Source: Chryseobacterium fluminis (GTDB lineage Bacteria > Bacteroidota > Bacteroidia > Flavobacteriales > Weeksellaceae). From it: 64,000 nucleotides of DNA. The notes below the pieces were generated by a model. It did no database searches. It was not told the origin of the DNA and saw only the letters and a program-made list of their open reading frames with translations. This document shows positions 22,913-26,119 of the stretch, one piece after another; the first letter of the stretch is position 1, and each line of letters starts with the position of its first letter. Location of the stretch: NCBI RefSeq assembly GCF_026314945.1, contig NZ_CP111121.1:620001-684000 (forward strand). Reading direction: 5' to 3'. A program made the position numbers and the translations under genes.

Positions 22913-24061
22913 TTATACTGATTTTAAAATTATTTTGCCTTTTTTGGATTGGGTAAAAATAAGATACTCTTTGCCTCCATCCTTTAAACTATATTTTTTC
23001 TTAATTTCTTCAGGTTTTAAAGGATAGTTTTTGGAGATAATATTAAACTGTTCTTTCTTTTTAATCTGCCTGGCTTCAATTATTTCCATTTCAAGAATTC
23101 TCCCCGGAAAATCAGGTTTCTTTTCGTCGCAAGTGTACAGATGAGTATTCGGGTGAAGCTTTTTCAATCCGAAACTTTGTGAAATCAGATTAAAAATACC
23201 GGCCTTTAAAATGGAATTGTTGGGAATATAGATGTATTTTCCGGGTTCAGCATACTCAGAAACTGCATTTTCTTCATCCTCAAACCGATACTCAAAGTCA
23301 GATTCACCACTTTCAAGATTTACACAGGTACAGCTGATATTTCCGGAATTTTCCCGGGATAAAAAAATAACGACTTCCTTCACATCATTTTTTACAGCGA
23401 TGATGTCGATTCTGAAGATGTCCGGTAGAACCGAGATCAAATATTTAAGGTCAATCAGCGGTGATAATTTTACAACTACCTGCTTGGAAATAGAAAGCAG
23501 TTTTTCCTGTATTTCGATGATATTGGGAGATAGATGTTCTAATAAGAAGACTTTATTTTTCTGAGCATCCCTTCTGGCCGGATCCAGATACACCGTATCA
23601 AAATATTCCTGATGTGCAGGTAAAAAATCTTCCAGTTTCTGGTTGATGAACCTTGCTTTTTTGCCCAGGACATTCCAGTTGTGCGCTACGGTTTCCAACA
23701 GATCCTTATTCTGCTCTACCAAAATGGTTTCTTCAAAATTCCGGGACATATAATAGGCATCTATTCCAAAACCGCTGGTAAGGTCAATTAGTTTTTTACC
23801 TTTTAAAATTCCGGATTTGTAAACGGCCGTTTTTTCTGATGAAGATTGCTCCAGGCTTAGCTGTGGAGGGAAAATAATGCCTTTTTCCAACAGAAAAGGA
23901 AATTTTTTCTCTGCTACCTGTTTCCCTTTGATCTGCTGAACGATTTCCGACATAGAGACTTCCGGAAACGGAGATTTTTTTAATAATAAGGAATGCAGAT
24001 CGGCAGACAGATTTGCATGGATATATTCCTGAATTTCTTTGTTTAATATTGTATTCCCCAC
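22913..24061 (-). CDS. Class I SAM-dependent methyltransferase with THUMP-like C-terminal domain
   Basis: A 382-residue cytoplasmic protein. The middle carries the SAM-binding core LIDLTSGFGIDAYYMSR (motif I), LVEQNKDLLETVAHN and YLDPARRD (post-motif). The C-terminal part (YPLKPEEIKKKYSLKDGGKE) fits the THUMP-like domain of these proteins, suggesting RNA as substrate. The N-terminal helical region (NKEIQEYIHANLSADLHSLL) is in place. The start is unusual: the only suitable codon is GTG at 24061-24059, which overlaps the inverted repeat of the neighbouring GxxExxY unit. The next in-frame ATG would remove 36 conserved-looking residues. Target nucleotide unknown. Confidence 0.82.
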   Translation of the reverse strand: MGNTILNKEIQEYIHANLSADLHSLLLKKSPFPEVSMSEIVQQIKGKQVAEKKFPFLLEKGIIFPPQLSLEQSSSEKTAVYKSGILKGKKLIDLTSGFGIDAYYMSRNFEETILVEQNKDLLETVAHNWNVLGKKARFINQKLEDFLPAHQEYFDTVYLDPARRDAQKNKVFLLEHLSPNIIEIQEKLLSISKQVVVKLSPLIDLKYLISVLPDIFRIDIIAVKNDVKEVVIFLSRENSGNISCTCVNLESGESDFEYRFEDEENAVSEYAEPGKYIYIPNNSILKAGIFNLISQSFGLKKLHPNTHLYTCDEKKPDFPGRILEMEIIEARQIKKKEQFNIISKNYPLKPEEIKKKYSLKDGGKEYLIFTQSKKGKIILKSV

Positions 24062-24505
24062 AGATTTCGCAGATTTTCACAGATCATTATGCTTATTTTA
24101 GAATATTCCATTTACTTCCGGAAAATATTTTTATCTATATGATCGGTATTAAAATTAACTAATATTCCTAACTTTAGTCCTGTCAGCTTTAAATAAGTCA
24201 ACAACTGTTTGTGATGAACATTATTAATTTCTGAAATTGATTTTATTTCAATAATAAATTTGTCATTCACTATAATATCAGCAATAAAGCTCGATTCGAT
24301 CAACATATCTTTGTAATGGATAAAAATAGGAACTTGACTATTAACATGTAATCCTAAGTTTTTCAATGCGTAGATTATTATTTTCTCATATACTTTTTCT
24401 AATAATCCTGGCCCCAACTCGTTATAAACAGAAAAAATACATTTTCTCTCATTCGTGTCTGTTTCCGAAAAATGTAAAAAATCTGTGGAAATCTGCGAAA
24501 TCCGT
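24060..24505. mobile_element. GxxExxY unit bounded by 25-bp inverted repeats
   Basis: A 446-bp segment between the dinB-like and methyltransferase genes. Its ends are 25-bp inverted repeats with two mismatches: 24060-24084 (ACAGATTTCGCAGATTTTCA...) and the complement of 24481-24505 (ACGGATTTCGCAGATTTCCA...). It carries only the GxxExxY gene. No target duplication is obvious and no transposase is present, so any movement would need help in trans. The left repeat touches the GTG start of the methyltransferase; the right one ends 10 bases before the dinB-like stop. Mobility is inferred from structure alone. Confidence 0.5.
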
Positions 24506-24516
24506 AGGAGTGACAT
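24112..24516 (-). CDS. GxxExxY protein (PD-(D/E)XK nuclease-like fold)
   Basis: A 134-residue product defined by GPGLLEKVYE, the GxxExxY signature. Further right it has a nuclease-like core: SSFIADIIVNDKFIIEIKS gives the D...ExK arrangement of the PD-(D/E)XK fold, followed by HHKQLLTYLKLTGLKLGILVNF. The cellular role of the family is not established. The N-terminus is odd: RISQISTDF is simply the translation of the flanking inverted repeat, and the usual first helix seems shortened. The true start may therefore be internal. The ATG overlaps the dinB-like stop (TAATG). Confidence 0.8.
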   Translation of the reverse strand: MSLLRISQISTDFLHFSETDTNERKCIFSVYNELGPGLLEKVYEKIIIYALKNLGLHVNSQVPIFIHYKDMLIESSFIADIIVNDKFIIEIKSISEINNVHHKQLLTYLKLTGLKLGILVNFNTDHIDKNIFRK

Positions 24517-24959
24517 TATCTTTTATAAAAAATATAATCCGTTACTACAGGCTCAATGCCATTTTGCCTTAGCAGAGAATTGATCTGCCCTCTGTGGTAG
24601 GTCGAGTGATTGACCGCCTGAAAAAGCATTTCAAAGATACTGTTTTCGAATGCTGTTCCTTTTGAATTATGATATTCTCTCCTTTGATCAGGATCATAAT
24701 TTTCAATAATCTGAATGCTGTTCTTAAAGTTCTGCTGATTAATTTCTTCCAAACTATCAAAAGGATTAATCTGCCAGACTTCAAATGTTTTTTCACCGAG
24801 AATCCTTGCATTCCAGATCTGCTGGGCATTAAGGATATGGTTGATTAAGCGTACGGTCTTTTCATCAGCTTTGGGAAGATTGTCAGAGATAATTCTGATC
24901 ATTTCATTGTTAAAATGAAAAGTATATTCAAATAAATCAATTAATTTTTCTCTCATCAT
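24516..24959 (-). CDS. DinB-like four-helix metal-binding protein
   Basis: A 147-residue protein of the DinB/YfiT superfamily: four-helix bundle, metal-dependent, often thiol-transferase-like but mostly uncharacterised. The key signature is QAVNHSTYHRGQINSLLRQNG near the C-terminus, giving two of the three metal His ligands. The third is expected in the first helical pair (INHILNAQQIW). The start overlaps the end of the mutase subunit gene by 4 bases (ATGA), showing translational coupling. The biological role is not inferable. The DinB name refers to DNA-damage induction in Bacillus, not shown here. Confidence 0.82.
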   Translation of the reverse strand: MMREKLIDLFEYTFHFNNEMIRIISDNLPKADEKTVRLINHILNAQQIWNARILGEKTFEVWQINPFDSLEEINQQNFKNSIQIIENYDPDQRREYHNSKGTAFENSIFEMLFQAVNHSTYHRGQINSLLRQNGIEPVVTDYIFYKR

Positions 24960-26119
24960 TCATACATTTCTGCCCAACGTACTGCTCTTATTTCTTTCTC
25001 GTCATAAAGATCTTCAACAGACTTTCTGACGTCCAGCTTAGGATATAAATTAACGCCAATCAGCTTTATCTTTCCTTCTTCTACCCACTTTTGCTCTTCT
25101 ATTGCATGATCATAGATCTTTTTCTGTATGATTCCCTTCTTTAAAAGTTCAAGATAGCCACCATCCGCCTCAATTTCCACGAACAATGCCCAGGCCTTTT
25201 CTGCAATCTGCTGCGTAATATCTTCTACATAATAACTTCCATTCGCCGCGTCTTCAAAAACGTTGATGATACTTTCATACGCCAGAACGATCTGCTGTTT
25301 AAAAGATATTTCCTCAGAATTATCCGTACTTCTGTCTACCAGATAATTATTGCTGAAAACGGCATCCGCACCGCCGATCATTGCTGAAGCAAGCTCCAGT
25401 GTGGAACGGATCAGATTATTTTCAATATCTGAAACCGCTTTATTCCTCAATGAAGTCTCTGCGAAAATATAAGGTATTTCATCTAAACCGTATTCTTTTG
25501 AGAATTGGTTGAAAACAATCTTAAAGGCTCTCAATTTCGCCATTTCAAAGAAGTAATTCCCTCCCACTGCCAGTCTGAAAACGAGTTTACTGATGATCTC
25601 AGGTCCGTATAATTCAACCAGTTCTTTGGTTTGGGCAAGAGCGAATCCTAACTGCTGGTCAATAGCTGCTCCTGCATTCTGGTGAAGCGCGATATCGATA
25701 CAGATATTTCTTTTAAACTGCTTTGCTAAGAGTTCTTTGACGAGCTGATCATCAATCAGTGCATTTTTTTCATCAAAGACATTGATGAGAGAAAAATACT
25801 GATCTTCCTCTGTGGGACTGATATGGCCAGCCAGATCTTTGTTGTTAACGAAAATAGTCTTCTGCTGAAGCCCCTCCACATTATGATCCAGAATAAATGC
25901 AAATACATCCTCTTCCAGACTCTCGTGATATCTGGCAACCAGATGTGTGTTTTCCTCTATTTTCGGAAGGTTTACCAAAGGCTTTTTTACGGAATCATAA
26001 AAAGGCTTCACCTCAATTCCTTCCAAATTATCTTTTTTGAGAATGGAGTAAATATCTTCAGTTTTAAGTTGCTTTTTTACTAAATTTTCCCAGCCTGAGA
26101 AGGTATCTGTATTTGCCAT
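24956..26119 (-). CDS. Methylmalonyl-CoA mutase small (beta) subunit-like protein
   Basis: A 387-residue protein with the substrate-barrel region of methylmalonyl-CoA mutase but no C-terminal B12-binding domain, as in the non-catalytic small subunit of the heterodimer. Recognisable stretches are NICIDIALHQNAGAAIDQQL, LVFRLAVGGNYFFEMAKLRA, YIFAETSLRNKAVSD and NLIRSTLELASAMIGGADAV. Known: it pairs with a catalytic large subunit to interconvert succinyl-CoA and methylmalonyl-CoA. The large-subunit gene normally follows directly; here the next gene is the dinB-like one and no large subunit is in the window. About 120 residues shorter than the longest small subunits. Confidence 0.85.
   Translation of the reverse strand: MANTDTFSGWENLVKKQLKTEDIYSILKKDNLEGIEVKPFYDSVKKPLVNLPKIEENTHLVARYHESLEEDVFAFILDHNVEGLQQKTIFVNNKDLAGHISPTEEDQYFSLINVFDEKNALIDDQLVKELLAKQFKRNICIDIALHQNAGAAIDQQLGFALAQTKELVELYGPEIISKLVFRLAVGGNYFFEMAKLRAFKIVFNQFSKEYGLDEIPYIFAETSLRNKAVSDIENNLIRSTLELASAMIGGADAVFSNNYLVDRSTDNSEEISFKQQIVLAYESIINVFEDAANGSYYVEDITQQIAEKAWALFVEIEADGGYLELLKKGIIQKKIYDHAIEEQKWVEEGKIKLIGVNLYPKLDVRKSVEDLYDEKEIRAVRWAEMYE

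Follow-up and report, generated by a model that had tools for sequence, protein, structure and literature searches.

A GxxExxY gene between inverted repeats in Chryseobacterium fluminis, a candidate nuclease unit that lends a start codon to its neighbor

Why should a small gene of the GxxExxY family lie between two inverted repeats, one of which provides the start codon of the next gene? The question is raised by a 64,000-nucleotide stretch of the Chryseobacterium fluminis genome (contig NZ_CP111121.1, positions 620,001 to 684,000), here called the window, in which the minus strand carries, in order, a methylmalonyl-CoA-mutase-like gene, a DinB-like gene, the GxxExxY open reading frame (ORF) and a PG_1098-like methyltransferase gene. 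With moderate confidence, we take the segment to be a long-established and now decaying example of a compact kind of unit that is widespread, a one-domain Cas4/RecB-like PD-(D/E)XK nuclease gene framed by lineage-specific arms that the nuclease would recognize. Framed GxxExxY genes, common as they prove to be, suggest an overlooked kind of small mobile element.

The unit and its arms

The extended arms (24046-24084 and 24481-24519) are 39 nt long with 79% inverted match. Their core matches at 25 of 28 positions and scores 20.5, where the maximum among 1190 cross-paired flanks from 35 loci is 18.0. A preliminary description, made from the letters of the window, had proposed a GxxExxY unit with inverted-repeat ends of 25 bp and two mismatches; the unit stands, and the repeat is close to what was described, though the measured core is the 25/28 given here. 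With up to three mismatches allowed, the core pattern occurs in the window at these two sites only (0.00 expected), and a genome-wide search finds the arm pattern twice at this locus and once as a gene-free hairpin.

The same description held that one arm supplies the GTG start of the methyltransferase, and this is borne out. Given the extent of the methyltransferase ORF, its GTG falls inside the arm (Table 1); six codons upstream a TGA closes the frame, and in the other direction no ATG, GTG or TTG recurs in frame before codon 37.

The GxxExxY protein, whose nearest named relatives in a protein database search are from Chryseobacterium, scores 126 bits against TIGR04256 (cut-off 35) and 127.5 bits against PF13366 (cut-off 22), and so belongs to both curated families; neither model states a function. 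In the database, 7352 proteins match it at E <= 0.001. It has the PD-(D/E)XK fold of the Cas4/RecB type together with the catalytic residues E, D, ExK and QxxxY, from which nuclease activity is predicted, and the set is intact in the window copy (E40, D80, E90, K92, Q104, Y108). It differs from Cas4/RecB nucleases such as SSO0001 (structure 4ic1, which we take to be Cas4) in that a PDB sequence search with the window protein finds nothing below E 0.4 and that the annotated neighborhood of the unit holds no Cas gene. Candidacy as a defense gene was rejected, the PADLOC matches being weak ones to Cas4 and PDC-M36A.

Intact close homologs start with M[TN]ENE[LI]SFYIRK inside the arms and end with INGxx. 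In the window copy both the canonical start region and the final C-terminal residues are gone, and the frame now enters from the arm; the copy is probably decaying. The translated arm that had been described as the N-terminus of the protein is thus real for this ORF and peculiar to it, since healthy relatives start inside the arms.

Framing, arm types and dispersed copies

Framing was scored at inverted-repeat score thresholds of 14 and 18, with mechanical ORFs of the same loci as controls. A genus sample of 60 loci at other sites, chosen to leave out the methyltransferase slot and an ELSYKIIGAA-like subfamily, yields 41 framed loci at score 14 and 21 at score 18, against 6 and 1 of 227 controls; 29 new loci from across the phylum yield 18 and 12, against 2 and 2 of 53 controls. 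In both samples not every control ORF is a gene, and loci within one subfamily are not independent. The genome of the window itself holds two further GxxExxY loci with inverted repeats, unrelated to those of the unit, one of 43 nt at 95% and one of 24 nt at 92% (the latter around a GxxExxY fragment that does not reach the cut-off of the family), and another two at which no inverted repeats were accepted. Two loci elsewhere (L342 and L343) each carry paired GxxExxY genes close together.

Arm type tracks protein subfamily, not place. When the loci are grouped by how alike their flanks are (87 of 90 could be used), each GxxExxY subfamily occupies one to four places. One place, homologous on both sides, is occupied by two subfamilies, one with CCACAAAAG-type arms and the other with AAGTTCACTTTAG-type arms; likewise, the methyltransferase slot accommodates proteins of type A (the window type) and type B, each with its own arms. 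Type B is found in seven genomes and four flank groups (L280 being situated at the end of a contig); in 6 of 7 its own repeat is close by (the arm of L281 deviates).

The arms share a build as well, a row of short blocks with a period of 9-10 nt. The window arm reads CCACAGAT-TT-CGCAGAT-TTT-CACAGAT, and an arm of another family (L325) reads CCACAGAG-TA-CGCAGAG-TTT-CACGGAG. The two arms of a unit covary, with a match of 0.795 within slots versus 0.674 across genomes, a difference reached in 0 of 5000 permutations by a statistic that ignores relatedness; the set consists of 20 single-arm slots of 43, the other 23 having been set aside because of distance, a short flank or weak arms.

These ends are found again elsewhere, a search for other copies of the repeat pair having been proposed as a check. 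Among 148 congener genomes, repeat A is found in 100 and repeat B in 40, by searches of different stringency. Of the sampled A repeats (27 of 30, two cut loci and the window's own locus being excluded), 19 are single arms, 4 are short hairpins and 4 carry GxxExxY; the sampled B repeats (30 of 30) comprise 11 single arms, 15 hairpins and 4 longer copies, two of them without a long ORF. Across genomes, kinship ignored, repeat number is associated with the matching protein and not with the other type. The sole other A-type hairpin found in the window's genome (L008, 1438-1531, with 46 nt between arms) precedes a cobalamin riboswitch (RF00174, 95.5 bits, 1607-1792) by 76 bases.

The arms might instead be palindromes akin to miniature inverted-repeat transposable elements, moved by an unknown enzyme, with GxxExxY as cargo or a bystander caught between two of them. 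Such an origin suits the finding that, in both repeat families, most of the dispersed copies sampled are lone arms or hairpins without the gene, and that several genomes are rich in repeats without the matching protein. It is doubtful all the same: chance capture cannot explain the framing counts obtained at score 14 in genus and phylum against those of the controls, nor why, at two slots, arm type goes with the subfamily of the protein.

The methyltransferase slot across the genus

The methyltransferase is present in 147 of the 148 congener genomes, and its slot was examined in 110 of these (the 30 best methyltransferase matches plus the next 80 by score, the 37 least similar being excluded). 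A scripted test assigns window-type GxxExxY, whether whole, broken or remnant, to 44 of the 110, a GxxExxY of another type with other ends to 2 (L116, L143), and none to 64. All but one of the 44 window-type copies lie in the slot (43; that of L118 lies beyond DinB). One locus scored as none (L088) has, on direct reading, a broken copy of the second type.

Among the 64 slots without the gene, an A-type arm is present at the methyltransferase start in 40, a B-type arm in 2 and neither in 22 (score threshold 11); the threshold for a GxxExxY remnant is reached in 6, two of them doubtful (L031, L083). Clean sites, of the empty kind that had been proposed as a check, do exist: in 11 of the 110 slots there is no arm, and 2-8 nt separate the DinB stop codon from the TTG or GTG that corresponds in the alignment to residue 1 of the methyltransferase. 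The arm presumably outlasts the gene because the start codon lies in it, and the retained arm accounts in part for the observation, made at the outset, that the unit fits between its neighbors without killing either.

Other palindromes use the slot too. A different hairpin is present in 10 of the 64 by a strict test, and in more by eye; variants of one palindrome, GATGCTTCGAC...GTCGAAGCAT, stand beside the retained arm in slots without GxxExxY (Table 1). In the L131 slot, where two units apparently coexist, a window-type GxxExxY with its arms is followed by a B-type end, and it is from this end that the methyltransferase takes its GTG. It is a slot that turns over fast.

A recent arrival of the window copy as a mobile insertion is not supported. 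Close homologs occur in 47 genomes (E <= 1.4e-38, identity 63-100%, with matches at other sites at 59% or less), and in all 47 the methyltransferase adjoins, at a distance of 42-1009 nt; several broken slot copies (58-64% identity) rank under this top block. Flank and GxxExxY distances are correlated over 40 slots (Mantel r 0.38, maximum of 2000 permutations 0.25). Recent insertion was rejected in view of the fixed place in 47 of 47 genomes and of the decayed forms common in the slot.

These observations would also suit an ordinary accessory gene, vertically inherited, whose inverted repeats are regulatory or terminator-like and whose patchiness reflects repeated loss: close homologs keep to one fixed place, some slots without the gene hold its remnants, and an unframed subfamily exists. 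We consider this unlikely, as it leaves unexplained the dispersed arm copies, the lineage-specific arm types, the occurrence in this slot of a second unit whose ends differ, and the in-frame insertions into other genes described below.

Table 1. Coordinates of the features of the window (minus strand where marked) and of the loci compared with it
Feature	Locus	Positions	Strand	Remarks
PG_1098-like class I methyltransferase gene, GTG start	window	22913..24061	-	PF22013 76.7 bits, PF18096, PF03602
Methyltransferase GTG start codon, within arm	window	24059..24061	-	arm and GTG retained in many congeners
Inverted-repeat arm, methyltransferase side	window	24058..24084	-	three ~7-mers spaced 9-10 nt
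GxxExxY / PDDEXK_3 ORF, 134 aa	window	24112..24516	-	N-terminus runs through DinB-side arm; probably decaying
Conserved nuclease core of GxxExxY ORF	window	24133..24444	-	TIGR04256 positions 8-111, by profile search
Inverted-repeat arm, DinB side	window	24481..24508	-	translated RISQISTD in window copy
DinB-like gene	window	24516..24959	-	PF05163 55.5 bits; TAA overlaps GxxExxY ATG by one shared base (TAATG)
Methylmalonyl-CoA mutase small-subunit-like gene	window	24956..26119	-	upstream slot neighbor in congeners read
GxxExxY-RecQ fusion	L336	3353-6001 of reverse complement
GxxExxY-RecQ fusion	L337	3089-5737
GxxExxY-RecQ fusion	L338	3012-5660
Clean slots	L076, L090-L093, L095, L101, L107, L117, L120, L123
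Slots with GATGCTTCGAC...GTCGAAGCAT palindrome	L010-L012, L014, L015, L017, L022, L025, L026, L028-L030, L032, L036

Mechanism, known systems and in-frame reading

The unit is best read as a pair on the pattern of a REPtron, where a Cas4/RecB-fold nuclease would take the place of the RAYT transposase. The nuclease would recognize the phased arms as DNA, in the form of a hairpin or cruciform, would cut at them and thereby keep both arms alike, and would occasionally spread arm-loop-arm copies, with or without the gene, as RAYT transposases do REPINs. Units would settle at gene boundaries and could persist when their ends are in frame; at the methyltransferase slot, the GTG of the arm would be kept as a start codon even after loss of the nuclease gene. 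A bolder version, which we put forward tentatively, is that GxxExxY proteins are the dedicated enzymes of an unrecognized, phylum-crossing set of palindromic mobile elements, whose phased inverted repeats would be maintained and spread by a cognate single-domain Cas4/RecB-like nuclease instead of a transposase; copies with the gene (long) and without it (short) would share ends that are open in frame, and could therefore provide start codons or sit within the proteins of the host.

Several observations weigh against a nuclease that keeps and spreads its own arms. The ELSYKIIGAA-like subfamily, the best-scoring in the genus, is unframed: a single locus of the 30 best TIGR04256 loci is framed at score 14, 28 of the 30 are of the ELSYKIIGAA type, and the framed one belongs to another subfamily. 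This arm-less subfamily led us to reject universal framing of GxxExxY genes. Many repeats occur without the matching protein, with at least 8 A repeats in 9 such genomes (two of which have a broken copy) and at least 8 B repeats in 12; one genome, G074, has 43 B repeats and no B protein, and it remains an exception to the association because two of its GxxExxY loci, examined for this, carry other arms. The window's genome, in which no dispersal is seen for the arms of the second framed GxxExxY, holds one further A-type hairpin. The association of repeat and protein could not be confirmed on phylogenetically independent pairs, the supported ones, 6, being too few. No target-site duplication could be defined, the clean slots being too diverged for it, and we infer action of the nuclease on the arms, and likewise movement, without direct observation. 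Finally, presence in the slot carries no phylogenetic signal (36 changes versus a shuffle mean of 34 on a 108-row locus tree), and nearest neighbors agree on it in 28 of 56 cases. This fits rapid loss from an old state; given the lack of that signal, gain by repeated transposition at the slot, or homologous exchange between congeners, may also have had a part.

An RNA-level element like the intervening sequences (IVSs) of 23S rRNA, whose arms would pair in the transcript and whose stem RNase III would trim while neighboring ORFs tolerate it, is very improbable: the RNA fold of the unit does pair the arms (z -4.87), and in size and layout it is similar to the ORF-containing, 428-nt IVS of Coxiella (excerpt of PMC4990558), but the inverted repeat by itself accounts for the fold, the unit is flanked by protein genes and is not part of rRNA (with no Rfam match at 23900-24700), and arm mismatches show no excess of G-U over A-C (37 versus 55, and 31 versus 30), so that RNA pairing is not what keeps the arms alike, and an RNA-level stem was rejected. 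In the same excerpt, the IVS with its S23 ORF is alike in being a unit of ~430 nt with a decaying ORF between processed ends; the window unit differs in its place between DinB-like and methyltransferase genes, its protein family and in showing no sign of an RNA-level pairing constraint.

The comparison that serves the nuclease-and-arms reading best is with REPIN-RAYT systems (REPtrons and TIRtrons), for which excerpts of PMC3116915, PMC8049555 and PMC3733652 describe one enzyme gene between repeats that match it, further repeats scattered as hairpins, a separate repeat flavor for each enzyme, higher repeat numbers where the enzyme is present, and an enzyme that is inherited vertically and not self-copying. 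The GxxExxY units are alike in the gene between matching repeats, the repeat flavor tied to the enzyme and the vertical inheritance, to which rapid loss is added, and the window unit does have the defining layout of a REPtron, with inverted copies of one repeat on either side of the enzyme gene to which they belong. Hairpin dispersal, with more repeats where the enzyme is present, is seen across genomes but not borne out on independent pairs, and dispersed copies are rare in the window's own genome. The likeness is one of layout; judged by its enzyme, the unit is not a RAYT. The window protein matched PF13366 and TIGR04256 alone and has the Cas4/RecB-like PD-(D/E)XK fold in place of an HUH tyrosine transposase (IS200/IS605 type); no transposase gene was found in the unit. 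The arms, moreover, are rows of ~7-mers every 9-10 nt rather than GTAG-tagged repetitive extragenic palindromes, and their copy numbers are low.

GxxExxY appears in work on CRISPR reverse transcriptases (excerpt of PMC8934634). Among the matches listed for open-licence papers on REPINs, palindromic elements, IVSs, palindromes within genes and repeats of Chryseobacterium (10-15 listed of 22-131), judged by title and the start of the abstract, none ties GxxExxY to repeats, and "PDDEXK_3" has no match in the open-licence literature. The family is very common, and pairing each subfamily with its own DNA arms gives a directly testable substrate. Palindromic repeats of the Bacteroidota and other phyla that now lack an enzyme may gain an owner, and the methyltransferase shows how a mobile end can turn into the start codon of a host gene.

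Compatibility of such units with a reading frame, which had been suspected from the window, is seen again in related units that are read in frame within other genes or fused to them. Three genomes, all from a single genus within the same phylum, have a GxxExxY domain fused in frame to the N-terminus of RecQ helicase (Table 1), and a protein search finds the same fusion in Balneola sp. RecQ, at which the fusion could hint, was considered as a functional partner and rejected, as pilin-like and glycosyltransferase cases indicate insertion at gene starts and not a shared pathway. The pilin-like case is from a Patescibacteria genome, where translation of the right arm continues in frame into a gene that has a prepilin N-methylation motif (the arm score of the locus is modest, 13.0). 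By protein sequence evidence, GxxExxY lies inside a split glycosyltransferase domain at one common position in three proteins (P0245-P0247) and inside another glycosyltransferase, at another position, in a fourth (P0244). No relatives of P0246 were found in viral contigs. The protein P0245 has, on the same kind of evidence, three extra inserts with similar translated ends that are absent from P0246 and P0247.

Rickettsia palindromic elements are short palindromic inserts inside protein genes, and the P0245 inserts appear to be alike in this respect. (One such element of Rickettsia, RPE-1, is placed in an R. conorii gene by an excerpt of a published account.) The GxxExxY units differ in that their long versions carry a nuclease gene, and the window unit in that it is intergenic and supplies a start codon. 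The short repeat-coded peptide inserts of P0245 occupy columns ~30-50, ~386-424 and ~451-515 of alignment A3.
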